This document shows positions 3,570 to 19,654 of a stretch of DNA of 20,030 nt, piece by piece. The stretch lies in the IMG/VR virus record IMGVR_UViG_3300021962_000847, positions 1 through 20,030 of that record. One strand, given 5' to 3'. A program made the translations under genes and the position numbers. The notes under the pieces were generated by a model that saw only the letters and a program-made list of their open reading frames with translations, was not told the DNA's origin and made no database searches. The DNA comes from a virus. Within the stretch, counting starts at the first letter, position 1. The number at the start of each line of letters is the position of its first letter.

Positions 3570-3790
3570 TTCGGTAAGAATCCTGCAAACGGTGTGAACT
3601 TGGCGATGAATGCGCCCACCGTAGATGAGATGCCAGCGACCAACATGAGGGTCTTCCACCCTCCCTTGGCCTGCTGAAGGGTCTCACGGATGATCTTCAG
3701 GTCAGCTTTGACCTCATCCATGTCCCTCCGCATATGTTCTAACTCAGTGTTAAGAACTGCGATCCTGACTTGGGGATCGTCTGAACTCAT
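3566..3790 (-). CDS. Small coiled-coil/TM lysis accessory protein (XhlA-like)
   Basis: 74 residues. Residues 8 to 43 are charged and heptad-like (coiled coil), followed by one hydrophobic segment at about 45 to 68 containing LMLVAGISSTVGAFIAKF. This plan resembles XhlA/hemolysin-type proteins that assist phage holins. It overlaps the holin stop (ATGA) with a strong AAGGGGG ribosome site, and precedes the small terminase by another ATGA overlap. T7 itself places its spanin gene 18.5 near here, but this protein lacks an obvious spanin signal peptide or lipobox, so I prefer a holin-accessory role. Moderate certainty. Confidence 0.65.
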   Translation of the reverse strand: MSSDDPQVRIAVLNTELEHMRRDMDEVKADLKIIRETLQQAKGGWKTLMLVAGISSTVGAFIAKFTPFAGFLPK

Positions 3791-4188
3791 TTTGTGACCC
3801 CCTTAACTTTCTCAAACGTGCGGAAGCCAGCAATACCCAGCATACCAAACGTGAGCGACATAAGTGCGTCAGCGTCAAACTTTGGAAGGGCAAGTGTGAA
3901 CCCCCAAAAGCTTGCCACCCATACAGCGACAGGAGCAATGACATACATAAATCCGAATGCGAAAGCGCACGACCAGCCAATGGCAGGACGCCAGCCCGCT
4001 ACAAACAGACTGGCATGTTTAGCTTCCTCTGTGTTGATCTGAACCTGACCCTTCATCTGCTCAATGGAAGCTGACAGCAGTGTTGCCTCAGCTTCGAGCT
4101 TTGCCCGCTCACGAGCAGCAGGATCAGGAATGCGGTCCACCAGCTTGTCGATGATCGGACCAATAATAGGAATGAGAGCGGCAAGCAT
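3787..4188 (-). CDS. Three-TM holin (gene-transfer-agent holin family)
   Basis: 133 residues. The N-terminus is hydrophobic (IPIIGPIIDKLVDRI), followed by a charged helix (about 21 to 60) and hydrophobic segments at about 69 to 99 and 108 to 122. GWRPAIGWSCAFAF is the recognisable signature of the 'Holin of 3TMs, for gene-transfer release' family, which forms the inner-membrane lesion that lets endolysin reach the wall. Start ATG has AAGGAAT eight bases upstream. It lies between the M15 endolysin and the XhlA-like protein, making a compact lysis cassette. This holin family is frequent in alphaproteobacterial phages, which supports the host inference. Confidence 0.85.
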   Translation of the reverse strand: MLAALIPIIGPIIDKLVDRIPDPAARERAKLEAEATLLSASIEQMKGQVQINTEEAKHASLFVAGWRPAIGWSCAFAFGFMYVIAPVAVWVASFWGFTLALPKFDADALMSLTFGMLGIAGFRTFEKVKGVTK

Positions 4189-4197
4189 GTTTATTCC

Positions 4198-4581
4198 TTA
4201 AGGGTATTTGTTTCGGTTAAGTTCGAAATGGGGACCATCTTTGAAACTCTTCCAGTCACCGCCCCACACAATGGGTACATCGAGATCAGCAGCTGCGGCT
4301 TTCACCGCCATTGCGATCCGGTCGTACAAGGGCCAATCCCAGCGGACACTGCCGCCAACAAGGGCAGCAAGGTCCACAGCGTGGCCTGTGATGTGTCGGG
4401 AGTTTAGGGTCTTGGATGCGCCAGCAGCGACTAGCTGTATCTGACGATCCTTAGACCTCAGTCCTTCAGTGACTACAAAGTCAACTTCAGACTTCGTGAT
4501 TGCAAGTTCAATGACCTTCACTAGGTCAGGATGGACCCCCTTCATGCGATCCTTTGACCGCTGAGAGAGGGCATATGCCAT
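4198..4581 (-). CDS. M15-family peptidase endolysin
   Basis: A 127-residue zinc peptidase predicted to cut peptide cross-links of peptidoglycan at the end of infection. The zinc-binding motifs are SRHITGHAVD (His63, Asp70) and GPHFEL (His118), and WGGDWKSFKDGPHFEL is typical of small phage M15 endolysins. There is no signal peptide, so release depends on the adjacent holin. It replaces the T7 amidase lysozyme functionally and by position is a late gene. No strong ribosome site is visible before the ATG; GGATCGAG sits slightly far upstream, so coupling to the preceding gene, six bases away, is likely. Confidence 0.92.
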   Translation of the reverse strand: MAYALSQRSKDRMKGVHPDLVKVIELAITKSEVDFVVTEGLRSKDRQIQLVAAGASKTLNSRHITGHAVDLAALVGGSVRWDWPLYDRIAMAVKAAAADLDVPIVWGGDWKSFKDGPHFELNRNKYP

Positions 4582-5885: not shown

Positions 5886-8351
5886 TCACCTAAAAACAGA
5901 TACGCAAAGAACAGAAGCTGCACCGCCGCTGATGTTACCTTCAGCAGCGCCAGCGTTGTTACCCTGTGTGTTACGGATGTCTACTGATGTAGTTGACATC
6001 GATTGAATACAGACAACCAAGCCCTGAAAATTGTTGTAGGCGTTTGCCGTACCAACTACTGAATAGTTTGTATCAGGCATTGCAGTGGCAAAGTTGAGCG
6101 TATAGTTACCAGTGCCATTTTTTGTCACACTTGAAATACCGCCCGACGCGCGAACAGATGATCCCGTAGCGTTGTAGTTCACCCACGCACGGCAACCGTA
6201 AGCAATAGCCGCCGAGCCGTAACCGCTGTTGAATGAGAATACGCCAGCACTAGAAATTCGAGCCTGTTCAGTACCATCAATAGCAATTTGAAGGTTGCTG
6301 GATGCGTCTATGTTTGTCGGGTCAACCGTAATTAGGAACGCAGAACCTGACTGACGAAGTTGAACAACACCAGTAGCGTCGTTATCGTCAAATCTAATTT
6401 CAGGAGCACTTGTCCCAAGATGCAGCAGGCTAGCTGGCGAACTCGTCCCGATCCCCACGTTGCCGGAGGAATCCATACGCATCTCATTGTAGGTTCCATT
6501 GTTATAGGTACGGAACCCAAGAGAAGTATTTCCAGAGCTACCAGTAATCGCATCAATGTACGTCAGCCCACTAGATGTGGGATACATATACAGACCATAG
6601 GAATTACCAGTCCCAGACAATGCAGTAGTCTGTTTAAGAACCGACAGAGATGCCGCCGGACTATTCGTCCCAATCCCCACGTTGCCAGACGTATCCCAGA
6701 AGGGACGCCCTGTAGACAGTTTAGCAGGGGTAACAGCACCGTCAGCAATGTCAGCAGTGATAACCGCACCAGCAGCAATCTTAGCCGTGGTAATTGAGCC
6801 ATCAGCAATTTTAGCTTCAGTCACAGCGCCATTCAGGAGTTCACCAGTGCCAACACTGTTAGCAGGCACACCAACAGTCACACCAGCGATAGACAAGATG
6901 CGAACTTGGATGTTGCTCGTGCCAGCGGGGGGAGCAGTGACAAACGTCAGTGTGCTGCCAGAGATCGAGTATTTGCTCGACTGCTGGTAGACACCATCGA
7001 TGAACACGTTGACAGGATCAGCAACAGCGGGAGACACAGACAGCGTGAATGCAGTCTGAGCACCAGTGCCAGAGAACGTATCAGTGACATCAATAACGGA
7101 CGAATTGATCGTCCCTGAGACAAACAGGTTCCAGTACGTGTTAGACGTAGCAGGAGCAGTCGGGGGAGCATTACCTGTACCGCCAAGGATGGCGATCCAC
7201 GCAGACCCGTTGTACTCGACAACATCGTCAATAACGTAGGTCGTACCAGCCGAGTAAGCACCACGCCATGTGTTGCCCTTAGCACCGTTGGCACCAGTAA
7301 CACCCTGTGGACCCTGTACACCCTGCGGACCAGCAGGCCCCTGCGGACCTGTAGCTCCAGTTGCGCCTGTAGGCCCCTGTGGGCCTGTGGACCCTTGCGG
7401 ACCTTGTGCACCCTGTGGGCCTGTAGGTCCTTGCGAACCAGCAGGACCCTGCGGACCAACGCCAAACGTAATGCCGTTCGACCAGTCACCAGAGGTAGCC
7501 GAGAGTTTGAAGTAAAGCTGCTCCTGATCTGTCGCCAGATACGAGAAGCCAGCCGACTGCGTGTTATACGTAGAGCGATTGCTAAACAGGCCAACAGCGT
7601 CGGGCTGGAAGTCAGCACCTGACGGACCTGTAGGACCAGCTACACCCTGTGCGCCCTGTGGGCCAGCAGGACCAGCAGAACCAGCGACACCAGCAGGCCC
7701 TTGCGGACCTGTAGCTCCGGTCGAACCAGCAGGCCCTTGCAGACCCTGTGGGCCTTGTGTGCCCTGTGAACCAGCGGGACCAGCCACGCCTTGCGGACCT
7801 TGTGGGCCAGTGAGGCCGAGAGGACCTTGGGGTCCAGCAGGGCCAGTAGCGCCAGCAGGGCCAACAGGGCCTTGTGCACCTGTAGCACCTGTAGGACCGG
7901 GCAGAGTGGCAGCAGCATCAACATACGCTTTCGTGGCAGCGTCGGTCGCCTGTGTAGGCGTTGCGAGATTCTTGATACGCCTAGTCAGCGCATCCCAGAC
8001 ACCAGCAGCATCGGGGGACAGAGCACGACCAGCAACGTCGTTAGCTTCCTGCATCCCGTAGAGCAGCTGGTTGACGGTCGCATTAAGCTGACCGCCTGTA
8101 ACAGGAGCGCCGTTTGTGAACACGACCTTCGCAGTAGCGAGGTCAGTCTGGCGCTCAATACGAACAGACGCCCCCACCGCCAATGCGGGGCTAACCGTAA
8201 TGACGTTGGGGGAAGTAAAGGTGTAGGTGTAACTACCGGAGCCAGCAAAGGTTACAATGACCTCGTCTTGGTCCAAGTAGCTAAACGGTACGGAGAACGT
8301 AGTCGTTGCCCCGTTTCCGTTATAATTTACATAGGTGTTATAAAAGGCCAT
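5886..8351 (-). CDS. Tail fibre protein (T7 gp17-like) with collagen-like blocks
   Basis: 821 residues. Residues 1 to about 148 form the T7 gp17-type N-terminal domain that docks to the tail ([14 protein letters not shown] ... [19 protein letters not shown]). Then come collagen-like Gly-X-Y block 1 (152-246), a spacer (247-298), Gly-X-Y block 2 (299-359), a carbohydrate-binding-like segment ([21 protein letters not shown], from 362), a beta-rich segment (421-488), and four decapeptide repeats of the GAVTxAKIAD type (508-547). Two GNVGIGT modules start at 553 and 627, and the C-terminal domain runs from about 710 to 821. No peptidase-like chaperone tail is seen. The start has AAGGA eight bases upstream, directly after the gp16-like stop. 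It is the main receptor-binding fibre; the C-terminal half probably sets host range. Confidence 0.93.
7275..7457 (-). repeat. Collagen-like Gly-X-Y block 2 in tail fibre
   Basis: About 20 uninterrupted Gly-X-Y triplets (residues 299-359 of the fibre), mostly GPQ, GPA, GAT and GPT. At DNA level the triplets form near-identical 9 and 18 bp units, prone to slippage or recombination. Confidence 0.9.
7614..7898 (-). repeat. Collagen-like Gly-X-Y block 1 in tail fibre
   Basis: About 31 Gly-X-Y triplets (residues 152-246), directly after the tail-docking domain. Expected to form a trimeric collagen-like rod that acts as the fibre shaft. Confidence 0.9.
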
Positions 8352-12734: not shown

Positions 12735-15700
12735 TTATTGCTCGTTAAAGATTGCCCACGCTTCTCGTGCGCGTTGAAATGCTCGCTTAGCAAGCTCACG
12801 CTGACTGGGAGGAGCGGCGTCCAGAGCCCTTCGCGCTTCAATAAAAGCGTCATAGATTGGACGGTACTCTTGTTCGTAGAAGTTGGTCAGATCGTTAAAC
12901 CGAGTTTCGATCTCTCGAATGATGCGCTGCTCGTCCTGACGACTTGCTGCACCACCAATACGATCAGCGAACTCAGCCTCAACCTTCTTCTGAGCAAAGC
13001 GGGCTACGTCCTTGGTGAACTGTTTCTGCTCACTCTGTTTGATACGCTGCTCAATCAACTGATCAAGCTGCCCACGCACCTCTGCGTTCTGTTTGGCGGT
13101 TGCCTCACGAATGACAGCAGAGCGTTCAGCAGGAGCCATCCCCTGAGTTTCTTCACGGGTAGGAATTGCTGACGTAGGTGCTACCTCACTCCGGTTACGT
13201 GGAGCAGGGCGCTGCTGAGGTTGACCTGTTGGTCTGAACTCATCAGTGGTCGGAGGTGTGACGCGCGTTGGAGCAGACATCTGAGCTTCAAGAACAGGAT
13301 CGTAAGACACGACCGTGCCGTTCGGCAGACGGTACTGGTAAGCACCATCAATCACGGCAGGCTTGCCAGTCTGATCAAGGATCACACGAGAGCCAGCCGG
13401 GAGAACACGAAGCGGACGTTCCACAGCAGCATCAGGCGGAATCTTTTGCTGAGCCATGCCAGTGGGATCAAACATCTGACCAATAGAAGCCTGACGTTCT
13501 GCCCACAGTTGCGGGTTGTAGCCTTCGCGCATGTTCTGCTGAGAGTTAGCGAACAGCATTAGGGACATAGACGCAGCATCGCCCTTCACGGTTTCCATCG
13601 TGATTTTCATGATGTCCTGAAGCTGCTTACCAGACGGCGGTTGCCCACCATTCTCCTGCATTGTCTGCATGTACCAATAGCTGAACACGTTCTCATACTG
13701 CTTCTGGAGCATCTGAACGTGCATACCAACCTTCTGACTGCTCGTCTGAGGGTCCATAGAGTTCTGATACAGCTTGCTCATGGCCTGAGTGTACTTGTCG
13801 TCCATCATCAGGAGGTTCTGTAGAGTACCTCGCTGAGTGGCAGCAATCTCTTCAGCCTTTGCACGAGCAATCGGGGTCTGAGTACGATGCTTGTCGTAAT
13901 CGTCCACGAGAGTGTTCAAATCGCTAAGCGTTAGCTCGCCTCTGAAACGCTTGAGGGCAGCTTCTCTGAACTGCTCCTTCGTAAGCTCTTTACCGTCACC
14001 AGCGCCAAGCTCCGACATGAAGCCTTGATCATTGAACTTGCTTCTGTAGATGCCGAGGTTGCCAGTGCTGACATCCTTGTCCACAACTGCCGTACCAAAC
14101 GTCGCAATCGACTTTGCCTTACCGTAGGCAGCTTGGCCTTCAGGGGTAGCAAGGTTGAACTTGGACTGATCAGGGAAATATGCCTGACCCTTGGAGAACG
14201 ATTCCTGAGCACGTGCGTACTCGGTGCGGAACGCTTGTTCAGCAGCCTGAGCCAGCTCCTGCTTCTTGAACTCATACGCTCGCAACGACTGTTCACTCAT
14301 GTTGCGCTGCGTGTCGTAAATTGAATTACGCTGGGCAGTGGTGAAGTTGCTACCATAGTTGGTCACAGCATCACCGAGGATGTTCTGTCCACGGGTGTAG
14401 TCACCAGTGTTAGCAGCTTCACGTGCAGTCTGAAGAAGGTTATCGGCGTAGATGCCTTTGACCTGTGACAGCGTGAGACCAGTCCTACGAGCCGTTTCGG
14501 CAATCTCAGACTGATAGGGATCACGTTCAGTACCGTTGAACCCAGAAGGACGATAGCTACCGCCGTTCGACATGTCCGTTCGGCCTTGGGCTATTGCCTC
14601 TCGCAGCTGTTCAGTGGAAACCTTTGCGCCATCCTTTGACCACGAGGCTTCACGGTCAACAAGGTCGATGTGCATGTGGGAGCCATAGACACCAATGCCT
14701 TTTACCCCAAGCGAGGAAAAGAACCGAGCAAGCTTAAGCTGCTTCTCAGGATCAGTGACGGAGATGTCCAAAGCGGTACCAGTCGTGTGAGGACCGTGTG
14801 CGCCAGACTTAATGCCCTTCTGTGCCTGATAATCACCAGTGCGATGACCAGACATCGGCATGATCTTGTAGCCAATGAACTGAGATGCCTGATCAAGAAC
14901 CTGAACGATGCGGGAGTCGAGGAAGCCGCTGCCTCCTTGAACGCCGCTGTTTTTGAAGTCAGACCACTTGTACCCGTAAACAGTGCTGCCAGTTGGGATG
15001 CCAGTGTTCTCATCGAACATGACACCCGCCTTCATGGCAGGAACAGGCGTACTGGGCTGATGGTAGGAGCTACGATCCTTCATTGTCTGATTGATGTAGC
15101 CGAGGGTTTCACGAAGAGTGCGTGACCCGTCCTTGCCGTACAGCCCTGCGTTCTTGTTCACATCACTGATGTTGAATGCGATCTCGCCAACCTTCACATC
15201 AAGGTTGTTGTTTTTGATTGCGTTGAGAAGGGGGGCTGCACCTCGTTCACCGAGGTTCCAGATGAGATACGTTTCAGCCGTCTTGGCCTCTCGACCGAGG
15301 ATCGTTGAAGCGATGTTCTTGAGACGAGGATATTCGACAGTGAGGGCAAGCAGAGAGCTTTCGCCATCACCCCTGTCTTTCAACCGTGCAGCCAACTCAG
15401 GGTTGGTCTTGGCAAGGTTCTCTTTGATCATGTTGAAGCGGTCAGTGGTGATCTGAGCCAGACCACGCACCCCTGTAGGCGAGACCGCATTAGGGTCCCA
15501 ACGAGGGTTCTCGACCGCAATAAACTGAGAAACTTCGGCTGGATCGACGCCAACTTCCTTGGCAAGCGTGTGAGCACGACTACGCCAATAGCCAGCACCT
15601 GAATTAAACTCGTTTGATCTCCGCTCAGCAGACTCAAGCCTGCCTGCGATGATCTCGTTGATCTGGGCCGTCATGGCCTGAGCATCACGAGCCTCTTCTG

Positions 15701-16262
15701 TGTTACGAGAAGCGGTAGCCCAGCCGCCACGGACGCTTTCCGTGTACTGAGGGTTCTGCTCGAAGAACTGTGCTGACAATCGCTGATTGACGCCACGCAG
15801 ACGAGCAATGAACTCGTCACGGTTAGCCATCAAGCCGGGATTGGAGATGATCTCTTGGTATTCTTTGTCAGCATTGAGTGTCTGTGCATATAGTCTGGTT
15901 CCTCGATCCTGATCCAGCGCAATACGCATGGTAGGAGAGGCACCTCGTTCGCCTGTGAGAAAGCCAAACAGGGAGCCAAAGACGCCACCAGTTTGTTTAT
16001 CAACACGAACATCGTCTAGGTCCTTCGTCGCTCTAGCTTGAGCATCTGCAATCTGCTGAGACTGTTCGTCAGCCTTAGTGAGAGCAGTGTTCAGCGTTGA
16101 GAGCGAGGAGACGAGAGAGTCAACACTACGAAGTTTGTCAGAGTATTGAGAGCGAATGCCCTCAGCGGAGACGCCATAGGTCTCACGGGGAGTGATTTTT
16201 GAAGAACCCAGTCGGACATCTTCTTGACCACCCCCGTAGGGGTCGTTAATCAGTAGAGCCAT
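12735..16262 (-). CDS. Internal virion protein with lytic transglycosylase and M15 peptidase domains
   Basis: 1175 residues, in the T7 gp15 position but longer (T7 gp15 is 747). Residues about 222 to 350 look like a soluble lytic transglycosylase: catalytic Glu251 in ENPRWDPNAVSPTGVRGLAQ and a later AETYLIWNLGERGA segment. Residues about 440 to 540 look like an M15 D,D-peptidase: SGHRTGDYQAQ, HTTGTALDI (His492, Asp499) and HMHIDL (His531) supply the zinc ligands. The remainder is mostly charged helix, with a Pro-rich stretch near 995-1075. It is predicted to be carried in the virion and to cut both glycan and peptide bonds during DNA entry. Start ATG has GAGGT upstream and follows the gp14-like stop by 7 nt. 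Confidence 0.9.
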   Translation of the reverse strand: MALLINDPYGGGQEDVRLGSSKITPRETYGVSAEGIRSQYSDKLRSVDSLVSSLSTLNTALTKADEQSQQIADAQARATKDLDDVRVDKQTGGVFGSLFGFLTGERGASPTMRIALDQDRGTRLYAQTLNADKEYQEIISNPGLMANRDEFIARLRGVNQRLSAQFFEQNPQYTESVRGGWATASRNTEEARDAQAMTAQINEIIAGRLESAERRSNEFNSGAGYWRSRAHTLAKEVGVDPAEVSQFIAVENPRWDPNAVSPTGVRGLAQITTDRFNMIKENLAKTNPELAARLKDRGDGESSLLALTVEYPRLKNIASTILGREAKTAETYLIWNLGERGAAPLLNAIKNNNLDVKVGEIAFNISDVNKNAGLYGKDGSRTLRETLGYINQTMKDRSSYHQPSTPVPAMKAGVMFDENTGIPTGSTVYGYKWSDFKNSGVQGGSGFLDSRIVQVLDQASQFIGYKIMPMSGHRTGDYQAQKGIKSGAHGPHTTGTALDISVTDPEKQLKLARFFSSLGVKGIGVYGSHMHIDLVDREASWSKDGAKVSTEQLREAIAQGRTDMSNGGSYRPSGFNGTERDPYQSEIAETARRTGLTLSQVKGIYADNLLQTAREAANTGDYTRGQNILGDAVTNYGSNFTTAQRNSIYDTQRNMSEQSLRAYEFKKQELAQAAEQAFRTEYARAQESFSKGQAYFPDQSKFNLATPEGQAAYGKAKSIATFGTAVVDKDVSTGNLGIYRSKFNDQGFMSELGAGDGKELTKEQFREAALKRFRGELTLSDLNTLVDDYDKHRTQTPIARAKAEEIAATQRGTLQNLLMMDDKYTQAMSKLYQNSMDPQTSSQKVGMHVQMLQKQYENVFSYWYMQTMQENGGQPPSGKQLQDIMKITMETVKGDAASMSLMLFANSQQNMREGYNPQLWAERQASIGQMFDPTGMAQQKIPPDAAVERPLRVLPAGSRVILDQTGKPAVIDGAYQYRLPNGTVVSYDPVLEAQMSAPTRVTPPTTDEFRPTGQPQQRPAPRNRSEVAPTSAIPTREETQGMAPAERSAVIREATAKQNAEVRGQLDQLIEQRIKQSEQKQFTKDVARFAQKKVEAEFADRIGGAASRQDEQRIIREIETRFNDLTNFYEQEYRPIYDAFIEARRALDAAPPSQRELAKRAFQRAREAWAIFNEQ

Positions 16263-16269
16263 TTATACC

Positions 16270-16812
16270 TCACGCAACGGATAGGCCACCAAGCTTGGCA
16301 GGAATGAAACCGCCTCGTACACCACCAGTGATACCAGCGGATGCAAGACCGATTGCCAAACCGAGCGGGTTGGGTCCTTCTTTGAACGGCATTGAATTGA
16401 TACGCTGCTGAGCTTCAGCACGGACAGACTCACTCTGGCCGATTAAGGCCATCTGAGCGTCGTCACGTTTAGCCTGAACACGAGATTCGTTTTCAGCAGC
16501 AACTTGTCGGGACTGTGCTTCAAGAGCATCAAGGGTATACGATCCGCCTGCAATGCCAGACGAGCCAGCAGAGGCTTGCAGAGTACCCATTTCGCTACGA
16601 GCCTTCAGAGCAGCCCTATAGCCCTCTTGGTTCGTGCCCTTGCTTTCAAAATAGTATTTTCTTTGGAGGTCGGAATACTTGTTCGCTGCTGCATATTTCG
16701 CGTCACGGTGTGCAGCCGCTGCATTTGCGTTGTAAGCATCTGTAGCCTGCTGCTGCCCAATATAACTAACGACAGCACCAGCAGCTTGAACCCCTGCCAT
16801 CAGTGTACACAT
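16270..16812 (-). CDS. Internal virion protein B (T7 gp14-like)
   Basis: 180 residues, close to T7 gp14 (196). The first 20 residues are hydrophobic and Gly/Ala-rich (MAGVQAAGAVVSYIG), followed by a long Ala/Gln/Lys-rich helical region that includes GTLQASAGSSGIAGGSYTLDALEAQSR, a pattern found in gp14-type proteins, and a Gly-rich hydrophobic C-terminus (GLAIGLASAGITGG). In T7 this protein is ejected first and is proposed to form a pore in the outer membrane. Start at 16812 is supported by AAAAGGA nine bases upstream; an ATG four codons later is the alternative. It follows the gp13-like stop by five bases. Confidence 0.88.
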   Translation of the reverse strand: MCTLMAGVQAAGAVVSYIGQQQATDAYNANAAAAHRDAKYAAANKYSDLQRKYYFESKGTNQEGYRAALKARSEMGTLQASAGSSGIAGGSYTLDALEAQSRQVAAENESRVQAKRDDAQMALIGQSESVRAEAQQRINSMPFKEGPNPLGLAIGLASAGITGGVRGGFIPAKLGGLSVA

Positions 16813-16817
16813 GTAGA

Positions 16818-17288
16818 TTATCCTTTTAGGCGAACAAACTCATAGAACGGCTCGTTGGTAGCGGGCATGGGTGCTTCCCTGAGGAAGACAAATCCCATCC
16901 ACTTGAGCCACGCATGGTGGAGTGTGTTCCTTGAATAGGTGTAGTTGTAGAAGCATTCTCTGTTCGTCTCTTCGTAAAGAGCGGAGAGAACGGGCCTACA
17001 GTTCCTGAGAAATGTAAACTTGTGCCGCCTTATGTCATCAGTGCCTAGCATCCATATGACCCCAAACCGTGGTCCGAAAGGTGATGGAGCTATGCCGAGA
17101 ATGGCAGCAGGGTTACGTGTGTCAGGCGCAATCAGTGCATAAGAGACTTCAGAGCCTTCGTTGGATGTGGAGAGGGCCAAGTCGGGCGACAGGCCACTTG
17201 CCCAGCACTCGTCTTGGTCCTCTTTCCGCATGTTCTGTGAAACGTAGGCAATGTCGTCCTGTGTTGAGGGACGATACAAATATCTCAT
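16818..17288 (-). CDS. gp13-like internal virion protein A with GNAT-type fold
   Basis: 156 residues from ATG at 17288. The start is chosen because it overlaps the tail tubular B stop as TAATG and because homologues begin with the same MRYLYRPSTQDD-type opening; a GTG at 17330 would add 14 residues. The region DDIAYVSQNMRKEDQDE matches the opening of T7 gp13-type proteins. The end, YNYTYSRNTLHHAWLKWMGF, looks like the last motif of acetyltransferases (N-x-x-H-x-x-W-L-x-x-x-GF). In T7 gp13 is needed for morphogenesis. Whether it binds an acyl-CoA cannot be judged by eye. Confidence 0.85.
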   Translation of the reverse strand: MRYLYRPSTQDDIAYVSQNMRKEDQDECWASGLSPDLALSTSNEGSEVSYALIAPDTRNPAAILGIAPSPFGPRFGVIWMLGTDDIRRHKFTFLRNCRPVLSALYEETNRECFYNYTYSRNTLHHAWLKWMGFVFLREAPMPATNEPFYEFVRLKG

Positions 17289-19654
17289 TAGATTCTTTGA
17301 ACTGACTTTGGAGCGATTATGCCTTGCCACTCCGCAGAGCCAAACGCTGACGGGAACGGACTGTCATTCGTAATCACGATGCGAGCCTTCAGGTTCTCCG
17401 ACATGACGGGGATGCGGTACTTCCCAGATGCAAACGGCTGCTTGCCGAGTTCAGCCTCGTTAGAACCGACAACAAAGCCCACAAATGTGGACGTAGCGTC
17501 GTCTCTGCCGGGGGTGATGATCTTGGTCTGGAAGTAGGCGGTGTTGTGGTACTCAATAGCGAGATACCTGATCTGAGTTCGGCCATCCAACATGACGACC
17601 TCACCTCCACCCTTCTGCTGACGTGCAAACAGGGTAGAGAACTCGTAGGTCATGGTGTAGGGCAGGCCAACCGTGTTCGTATATCCAGTGATATTACCGG
17701 GAACACGGAGTTCAGAGTTGTTCAGCTTGGTAACAGGCTGACGAATGCCGACAACCCCATTAGCAATGTCCGACGAGACTACCTCAGGCGTACCTGATGT
17801 CGAGTAAGGCAGGGTAATGGTTGTACGATCATTCACAGCGTCGTAGGTCATCTGCCCAACCGTAAGCTGGTGACGACGGTCAAGCATGATCTCATAGTTC
17901 AGGTCAGTGTCGAACACGTCCTCATCGAGGCGGATACGCTCAAGCGTGACCCCGTAGGTCCGCTCAGCGAGCATGTACAGATAGGTACCAGAGAACCCAG
18001 CCCAGTAGATTTTCACTACGTCAGGGAAGACCCATTTGGTCCAAGCGTTCTGCGCCTTCCTATCTCCAGCCCAAAAGAACTTGTATGCGTACAACGTGTT
18101 TGCCACGTCGCTCGAATAGACAACAACAGCCTTCGCCCTGTTAGAGCCAGCCATGAACCGGATGTTGTTTGGCACTAACTCAGGAACAGCAGAGGACACT
18201 TCGTCAGCATCGTCGTTCGTAGAGTTATCCTTAGGGAAGAACTCGTAGAGCTTGGAGTACTGGTAGTCAGCCCTGTCGTCCACAAAGTAGACAGAGTTAC
18301 CCATGTTAGCAGGGCGAACACGTGTTGACGTGTTGAACGCCGTGCTGAACTGGATGTTAGCCGTCTTGGGGCCAAGGTAGTTCTGGAAGGAGAAGCGAAA
18401 CTGATTGCGCTCCGACATCAACAGGAGGTCACGGTTGTACGCGACAGCGTGATGCAGGATGTCCACATTGTTATGCAGGACGGCCAGATCAATCGGATCA
18501 CTATCCAATAGCTGAGCGGTGGTCGTGCGATAGAAGTTTTCGTAGTTGTCCACCTCCGACATGATGATGTTCTCATCTGCCAGAATGCCGAGGCGATTGT
18601 TGTAAACGAAAATGTCGTTGATCTTGGTGTCCACAAAGGAAGGATTGCGAGCACTTTCAGTGTCGCCAACAGCCCTGTTGACCCACGTGTGGCGCTTGAA
18701 CGTCCACGTCCCGTTGGTTTCACGGACCAGAACGTGAGGCATGGTAGCCTCATCTAGCTTCTCGCCTTGATTCCAATCCACAGTTTCACGCCAGATGCCC
18801 TTCTCGTAGATGACGTAGTAGTCATCACCGAGGGCTTCAAGATCACCAGCGACACGCACGATGCGTCCTTCAGGGGATGTGGGAGGCAAGTCAGAGAACG
18901 ATTGAACGTCCCTAATAAAGCCCTTGAGCGATTTGTCACCAGTGCCGCCCTGTGTAGACAAGGTGCCGTTAGCTGGAAAGTTTGTGATGGTAATGGTGGA
19001 GCCTGTAAGGACACAGGTGTAGCCACTGGCTACTAGATCGTCACGGATTTCCTGTGCGATAACGGTTGTAGACTCGACAGCAGTAGATGCTGACGTGCCG
19101 TCTCCTGTTAGAAACGACGCACGTAAAGTTCCGTTGATGTAAACCGAGTAGTACGTGTTCGCAGCCGACGAGGTAACGTAGATCGTAGCTTCCGCCGTTG
19201 GGTTACGCCTTGTCTGCGTGGCAGCAAGGGTAGCCTCAGTGACTGCTGAGGACGTAACGGACACGTTTCGGTTAGAGATAAACGTGAAGTCGCCAAACGT
19301 GACAAACCGAAAAGCGTCAACGGGAGAGGCTGCTGTGAGGTAACTTTTACCGTTAGGGAAGTTCACAGTCTGAAACGTACCGTCAGCAAGGTTGAGCACC
19401 TTGAGATCACCGTTCTCCATGACCACAAGATAACGGTAGCTTTCGTTACGCTCGATCAGGTAGCCGCAAGCACCGTTTGTGAGTGCCGAGCCTACGTTTG
19501 CGATGTGACGTGTAGGAGGACGCTTCTGCAAGCCGCTCACAATTGAGGGCCACGAGTTAATCGTCTCCTGACACGTGTTGGACAGTCGCAGAGCAGGAGG
19601 CTGCTGCGATATTCCACCAACGAGGTTAGGGATGGTGCTTGAGACTAGAGGCAT
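17288..19654 (-). CDS. Tail tubular protein B (T7 gp12-like, tail nozzle)
   Basis: 788 residues, almost the length of T7 gp12 (794). The opening IPNLVGGISQQPPALR followed by NTCQETINSWPSIVSGLQKRPP is characteristic of this family, as is the YLVVMENGDLKVLNLADG segment near residue 75. The body is beta-rich, as expected for the nozzle that closes the short tail and opens on adsorption. Its ATG overlaps the tail tubular A stop (TAATG), and its own stop overlaps the next start in the same way. Confidence 0.95.
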   Translation of the reverse strand: MPLVSSTIPNLVGGISQQPPALRLSNTCQETINSWPSIVSGLQKRPPTRHIANVGSALTNGACGYLIERNESYRYLVVMENGDLKVLNLADGTFQTVNFPNGKSYLTAASPVDAFRFVTFGDFTFISNRNVSVTSSAVTEATLAATQTRRNPTAEATIYVTSSAANTYYSVYINGTLRASFLTGDGTSASTAVESTTVIAQEIRDDLVASGYTCVLTGSTITITNFPANGTLSTQGGTGDKSLKGFIRDVQSFSDLPPTSPEGRIVRVAGDLEALGDDYYVIYEKGIWRETVDWNQGEKLDEATMPHVLVRETNGTWTFKRHTWVNRAVGDTESARNPSFVDTKINDIFVYNNRLGILADENIIMSEVDNYENFYRTTTAQLLDSDPIDLAVLHNNVDILHHAVAYNRDLLLMSERNQFRFSFQNYLGPKTANIQFSTAFNTSTRVRPANMGNSVYFVDDRADYQYSKLYEFFPKDNSTNDDADEVSSAVPELVPNNIRFMAGSNRAKAVVVYSSDVANTLYAYKFFWAGDRKAQNAWTKWVFPDVVKIYWAGFSGTYLYMLAERTYGVTLERIRLDEDVFDTDLNYEIMLDRRHQLTVGQMTYDAVNDRTTITLPYSTSGTPEVVSSDIANGVVGIRQPVTKLNNSELRVPGNITGYTNTVGLPYTMTYEFSTLFARQQKGGGEVVMLDGRTQIRYLAIEYHNTAYFQTKIITPGRDDATSTFVGFVVGSNEAELGKQPFASGKYRIPVMSENLKARIVITNDSPFPSAFGSAEWQGIIAPKSVQRI

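Follow-up and report, generated by a model that had tools for sequence, protein, structure and literature searches.

The gene at the gp15 position of the ejection operon in this window (the whole stretch of DNA analysed, a metagenomic IMG/VR virus record of 20,030 bases) encodes a protein with a predicted lytic transglycosylase domain followed by a predicted M15 zinc peptidase site. Pfam matches, structure comparison, residue invariance, gene order and the profile similarity of its core all agree with the earlier note that proposed this pairing. The preferred reading, with a probability of about three in four, is that a T7-like podovirus has had a two-enzyme, peptidoglycan-opening module inserted into its gp15-type ejection (tunnel) protein. 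As predicted from the sequence, the module most likely serves to open peptidoglycan around the ejected tunnel for the DNA, cutting glycan as well as peptide bonds.

Genomic context

Open reading frames together with Pfam and PHROG matches reveal a T7 late-gene order on the minus strand of the window, consisting of tail tube, nozzle, phrog_308, gp14, the two-enzyme protein, gp16, a collagen-like tail fibre, an M15_4 endolysin, a holin and the large terminase. Table 1 presents the features under discussion. The gp16 homologue is 34% identical to 'internal virion D' of LUZ100. It matches no Pfam family at E<=1 and thus has no recognisable transglycosylase; Pfam likewise finds no SLT in the gp16 proteins of the window and of six related loci (L006, L007, L009, L011, L081 and L084). 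The tail fibre (5886-8351, minus strand) has a T7 fibre N-terminus and three stretches of collagen repeats, and it weakly matches DUF4183 and CBM_5_12. Between nozzle and gp14 lies the phrog_308 protein (16818-17330, minus strand), and the gene at the same position in S-SRP02 is annotated 'putative acetyltransferase'.

Table 1. Features of the window and of comparable phage proteins. Coordinates refer to the window unless a phage and locus are named.
Feature	Coordinates	Strand	Evidence or annotation
gp15-position ejection protein with both enzyme domains	12735..16262	-	intact ORF, 1175 aa; gp14 and gp16 neighbours
N-terminal arm (residues about 1-200), also present in sister phages that have other enzyme modules	15663..16262	-	BLAST
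Lytic transglycosylase (GH23-like) domain (predicted), residues about 215-420	15003..15620	-	Pfam SLT, predicted fold, E251 invariance
M15 (hedgehog/DD-peptidase type) zinc peptidase domain (predicted), residues about 425-545	14628..14990	-	PF08291, conservation, fold list
gp15-type core, residues 594-901	13560..14483	-	profile matches
gp14 homologue	16270..16812	-	Pfam T7_gp14 E 4.9e-21
gp16 homologue, 1439 aa	8361..12680	-	phrog_6651 internal virion protein E 1.1e-14
Nozzle protein, basis of the search for relatives and of their tree	17288..19654	-	Pfam Phage_nozzle E 5.8e-234
Separate lysis endolysin, M15_4 subfamily (unlike the gp15-position M15)	4198..4581	-	PF13539 E 2.7e-13; phrog_465 endolysin E 1.5e-60
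Holin adjoining endolysin	3787..4188	-	Pfam GTA_holin_3TM E 3.7e-16; phrog_3427 holin
Two-enzyme gp15-position protein, Atu_ph02	L099 3911-7486		annotated 'endolysin'
Two-enzyme gp15-position protein, Alfirin	L100 12081-15632		annotated 'endolysin'
Two-enzyme gp15-position protein, NMeng1	L102 1038-4940	-	annotated 'endolysin'
vB_OspM_OC spike with M15_3 and Phage_lysozyme2	L068 366-2792	-	Pfam

A host of Gram-negative type is likely, since the nearest named nozzles come from phages of such bacteria; among the 60 matches listed, those of Bordetella, Roseobacter, Rhizobium, Prochlorococcus, Pseudomonas, Pelagibacter and similar phages are about 32-38% identical. Neither the gp15 alignment nor the nozzle picked up a relative when scanned against genome contigs, and therefore no host was found. 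A tblastn search of 50,697 phage records with the whole window protein and its L007 homologue returned nothing at E<=1e-5.

The two enzyme domains

A base check on the minus strand finds the four residues named in the earlier note exactly where it placed them: Glu251 (15512-15510), His492 (14789-14787), Asp499 (14768-14766) and His531 (14672-14670). The M15 site does follow the transglycosylase, with E251 and H492 separated by 241 residues rather than the "about 200" first given.

By hmmscan, Pfam SLT matches residues 236-286 at E 0.0016 and 18.4 bits, just under its curated cut-off of 21.3. A genome-level search scored SLT in the same frame at 21.1 bits, or 21.7 including neighbours, which it reported as over the cut-off, and two relatives exceed it outright (L007 at 24.2 bits and L086 at 23.2). 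The motifs comprise E251-N252, G267-L-A-Q270 within 'SPTGVRGLAQI' (261-271), and 'YLIWNLG' (332-338). In GH23/SLT enzymes, the catalytic glutamate lies in an E-[SN] motif, and G-L-x-Q comes after it. A five-row alignment yielded a model of residues 196-560 with a pLDDT of 72.6, the transglycosylase part being mostly at about 80-94. Its comparison with known structures gives Z 16.7 against phiKZ gp144 (rmsd 3.0, 171 residues aligned), mostly Z 11.6-12.8 (about 12-13) against Slt, MltE and MltF, and Z 10.9 against the T7 core protein 7eyb_I (136 aligned). On this modelling, residues of about 215-420 are predicted to adopt a lysozyme-like fold of the lytic transglycosylase type. A PDB sequence search with the transglycosylase profile found nothing relevant.

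For the peptidase, Pfam Peptidase_M15_3 (PF08291) covers residues 451-532 at E 1.1e-5 and 25.9 bits, over the curated cut-off of 23.2. The remaining four Pfam families listed at E<=1 in the protein are weak and under their cut-offs. The M15 motifs are S471-x-x-R474, H492-x6-D499 and H529-x-H531, in which H492, D499 and H531 are the predicted zinc ligands. In the HxH form, the catalytic partner presumably lies near the last zinc histidine, making H529 the probable catalytic residue; it is present in seven of eight distinct proteins and is replaced by tryptophan in L074/L075. A separate model of residues 425-545 (pLDDT 73.7) found no Foldseek match at E<=0.001. In a second structure comparison, hedgehog (28), VldE (5) and the M15 endolysin Ply500 (1) account for 34 of the 50 listed rows, at weak Z-scores of 4.6-6.1. 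Hedgehog and M15 enzymes share a common fold, and this list is supportive of an M15 assignment while giving no proof of it. Searched against PDB sequences, the M15 profile ranked repetitive designed TIM barrels first; these were taken as artefacts, and the true M15 enzymes 4mph, 4jid and 1lbu appeared only at E 0.56-0.78. Taken together, the modelling support appears strong for the transglycosylase and weak to moderate for M15. The earlier note had proposed structure prediction as a check and a non-M15 fold at residues 440-540 as grounds for dropping the idea; the fold list instead leans towards M15 relatives, though at the low Z-scores given above.

Conservation among relatives

Alignable proteins are found at eight further loci. 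Identity to the window protein is 85% for L001, 72% for L002, and 23-30% over the alignment for L007, L006, L074, L075, L080 and L086. Since L074 and L075 encode identical gp15-position proteins, the nine rows represent eight distinct sequences. Residues E251, S471, R474, H492, G495, D499, H531 and D533 are invariant in all nine rows, as is G267, with Q270 present in eight. Only 42 of the 365 columns across residues 196-560 are invariant, and the chance that E251, H492, D499 and H531 would all fall among them is about p = 1.5e-4. In the six distant rows, identity to the window is 38-50% in the M15 domain, 26-38% in the transglycosylase, 20-25% in the gp15 core and 15-23% in the C-terminal tail. 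Within this rapidly diverging protein the M15 domain is conserved best, and it is therefore under constraint.

Among the seven members submitted to hmmscan (the window, L006, L007, L074, L075, L080 and L086), M15_3 is supported in all, with E-values from 2.7e-11 to 3.4e-4 in the six relatives and scores of 39.6 bits in L007, 44.0 in L074/L075, 35.1 in L080, 35.6 in L086 and 21.2, below the cut-off, in L006. SLT reaches E<0.01 in four of the seven (the window, L007, L080 and L086). Pfam gives no SLT match in L006, L074 and L075, where the transglycosylase is recognised from alignment of the Glu and S...G motifs only. For the two closest relatives, M15 was assigned in L001 from 95% identity and in L002 from a 33-bit match in its record by the genome-level search. 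That loose profile search overlooked M15 both in the window and in L004's record, where the domain in the gp15 protein went unreported and the endolysin gene was the sole M15_3 match. Because known M15 domains were missed in this way, absences are called from hmmscan only. Residue invariance and the Pfam scores rule out chance motifs. Uniqueness to this phage is ruled out by the relatives at eight other loci, which add seven distinct proteins, and by the Atuphduovirus proteins described below.

An exchangeable module between arm and core

The enzyme pair appears to have been inserted where an N-terminal arm meets a gp15-type core, because the arm is common to proteins with other modules and the core is common to those proteins and ordinary gp15s. 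In L009, L011 and L081, BLAST detects only the first 61-78 residues of the window protein, which are 44-56% identical. Profile comparison extends the relationship to the core, with residues 616-896 matching L009/L011 at E 5.4e-18 (probability 99%). Against ten other gp15-position proteins, residues 594-901 match at E 2.7e-4 with a probability of only 42%, and L009/L011 match the same ten at E 1.1e-12. No sequence link was found between this ten-protein reference set and either the T7-type gp15 of ICP3 (E 0.8) or T7 gp15 in the PDB. Lacking the link to ICP3, the label gp15 therefore rests on gene order and the shared core family.

The sister phages, whose nozzles are 50-92% identical to that of the window, occupy 13 rows of the nozzle tree and form one clade at 100/100. 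Clade contigs that end before gp15 were left out (L010, L077, L078, L079, L083, L085, L087 and L089). Nine of the 13 rows carry the transglycosylase and M15 pair in the slot between arm and core. The gp15-position protein of L009 (12393-15263, plus strand) has an unrelated second two-enzyme module, Amidase_2 (E 4.6e-18) with Glucosaminidase (E 2.7e-15), and L011 has Phage_lysozyme (E 4.7e-7). Pfam recognises no enzyme in the slot of the remaining two, L081 and L084. The gp15 of L081 (IMGVR_UViG_2516653010_000002) is 808 aa long. L009, L011 and L081 branch within the transglycosylase and M15 rows, L011 by way of an open fork (81/77) on which its placement depends. Mapping the slot label onto the tree requires four changes, and the starred branches force at least two. 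This pattern fits replacement in place, with the direction unproven. The M15_4 endolysin of L009 is 65% identical to that of the window while the virion module differs, so changes in the one are not tied to changes in the other.

A broader and tentative proposal is that T7-like phages in general have a docking slot at this joint, which follows the first 200 gp15 residues. Selection may have repeatedly placed there enzyme pairs for two different peptidoglycan bonds (SLT with M15, Hydrolase_2 with M15, Amidase_2 with Glucosaminidase), in which case the DNA tunnel itself, not gp16, would bear a drill for two bonds that is adapted to the wall of the host. With a glycan cutter or wall hydrolase plus a peptidase on gp15-position proteins of the window and of named Agrobacterium and Nostoc phages, the role of wall chemistry as a driver of which cutters a podovirus ejects becomes testable.

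Gp15-position proteins in a wider survey

A non-random set of 37 gp15-position proteins, chosen via nozzle matches and follow-ups, was hmmscanned. Two enzymes are present in 11 of them: the window, L006, L007, L009, L074, L075, L080, L086, Atu_ph02, Alfirin and NMeng1, with the first enzyme called by alignment only in L006, L074 and L075. Five have one enzyme, namely a lysozyme in L011, SLT_3 in P-SCSP1n, and Hydrolase_2 in RHEph08, RHEph27 and SI01. No recognised enzyme is present in the other 21. In the Prochlorococcus phage P-SCSP1n (L056 4002-6860), SLT_3/SLT lies at the C-terminal 838-930, another placement for a cutter. The gp15-position protein of the Synechococcus phage S-SRP02 (L057 4404-7307) is annotated as an amidase, but no Pfam family matches it at E<=0.05. 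RHEph01 and TRX32-1 carry SLT at the start of gp16, as in T7.

At the gp15 position of Atu_ph02, Alfirin and NMeng1, Hydrolase_2 (about 240-358) is followed by M15_3 (about 388-527), and the M15 part of Alfirin aligns with that of the window by profile at E 3e-7. These three proteins are encoded within the ejection operon; they probably function in entry, and their annotation is likely misleading; more widely, the survey suggests that several proteins filed as endolysins act at entry.

Proposed function and alternative readings

After adsorption, gp14, the two-enzyme protein and gp16 would leave the head. The core of the two-enzyme protein could then act as the periplasmic tunnel, as in T7 gp15, with both domains placed round the tunnel at the wall. 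There, the transglycosylase would cut the MurNAc-GlcNAc bond and the M15 peptidase would cut the stem peptide or a cross-link, opening the mesh wide enough for the tunnel. Joint cutting of glycan and peptide may open the mesh faster than either activity would by itself. The M15 domain is more plausibly an endopeptidase than a carboxypeptidase, because trimming of terminal D-Ala would leave the mesh closed. Candidate target bonds for it are L-Ala-D-Glu, D-Ala-mDAP and terminal D-Ala. Given the separate holin-endolysin cassette, the gp15-position enzymes should be dispensable for lysis.

Not every element of this scheme need hold. If only the transglycosylase works at entry, M15 may bind peptidoglycan or be a non-cutting relic, in keeping with its weak fold match and the loss of the likely catalytic partner H529 to tryptophan in L074/L075. 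Such a reduced role is unlikely: the zinc triad and S-x-x-R are invariant in nine of nine rows, no other region of the protein is as well conserved as M15, and a binding role would not account for the retention of all three metal ligands.

Two other identities would take the protein away from the tunnel. GenBank labels of 'endolysin' or 'cell wall hydrolyse' on same-position proteins, among them those of Atu_ph02, Alfirin and NMeng1, would make it a lysis enzyme; yet a separate holin and M15_4 endolysin are encoded in the window, and the enzyme domains are embedded in a gp15-type protein within the ejection operon, so that a lysis role is very improbable. A DarB-like virion protein of the anti-restriction type is more improbable still, even though the DarB-like proteins of POI1126 and Atu_ph08 begin with Hydrolase_2 and then M15. 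For Atu_ph08, Attai and Brown 2019 describe this order of cell wall hydrolase and peptidase, and they call the Atu_ph02/03 proteins DarB-like as well (PMC6630229). The window protein, however, has none of the methylase or helicase families by Pfam, its length and operon position match gp15, and only the N-terminal enzymes are held in common. A gp15-type tunnel protein with an inserted two-enzyme module is thus the preferred reading.

Comparison with known systems

In T7, according to a 2022 review (PMC8954989), the pore through the outer membrane is made by gp14 and the tunnel across the periplasm by gp15, and the N-terminal part of gp16 forms wings of that tunnel with its transglycosylase. 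T7 gp16 (ejection protein D) resembles the window protein in being an internal virion protein that is ejected and bears a GH23-type transglycosylase; the 7eyb_I match above is to this T7 core protein. Its transglycosylase stands alone on gp16, whereas that of the window is on the gp15-position protein and is followed by M15. The review also describes relocation of the hydrolase domain from gp16 to gp15 as possible, and in the gp15-type homologues of K1E and K1-5 the peptidoglycan hydrolase has moved from gp16 to gp15, with lysozyme activity (PMC8954989). Unlike the window protein, these have one enzyme activity, and an M15 peptidase is not reported there (PMC8954989). The earlier note had regarded joint cutting of glycan and peptide bonds as a different entry strategy. 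Two-bond cutting holds up as the natural reading, but not as a unique strategy, in view of Hydrolase_2 with M15 in Atu_ph02, Alfirin and NMeng1 and of the hydrolase move already reviewed. The note's further idea, that the pair may suit a more cross-linked wall, is speculative.

Among virion lysins more generally, those with two lytic domains all came from Gram-positive phages according to a 2017 review; those of Gram-negative phages were mostly single-domain glycosidases, with P5 of phi6 the sole proven endopeptidase (PMC5380687). CwlP of SP-beta, phi11 Gp49, phiMR11 Gp61 and HydH5 are similar to the window protein in joining glycan cutters with peptide or amide cutters on one virion protein, but they are tail or baseplate proteins of phages with Gram-positive hosts and use other enzyme families (PMC5380687). 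In the tail-spike phiOC_p064 of Ochrobactrum phage vB_OspM_OC, a Gram-negative phage, M15_3 and Phage_lysozyme2 share one virion protein. This is a T4 gp5-like baseplate spike with the enzyme order reversed, and not an ejection protein. In phiM12, an M15 protein lies beside a tail lysozyme. L067, with M15 in a tape-measure protein, was left out of the relatives.

Literature searches of open-licence papers did not find an SLT and M15 pair in a gp15-type protein or its exchange in place; within that literature these two points are new, while parts of the two-enzyme arrangement are already in print. By its title, a 2017 study by Attai deals with a peptidoglycan hydrolase of Atu_ph02/ph03, and it may already describe part of it. 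The Atuphduovirus proteins (Agrobacterium phages Atu_ph02, Atu_ph03 and Alfirin, and Nostoc phage NMeng1), with Atu_ph03 represented here by tblastn rows only, share with the window the operon position, a length of about 1180-1300 aa and a wall hydrolase followed by M15_3. They differ in that their first enzyme is a SleB-like Hydrolase_2 where the window has SLT, and in being annotated as endolysins.
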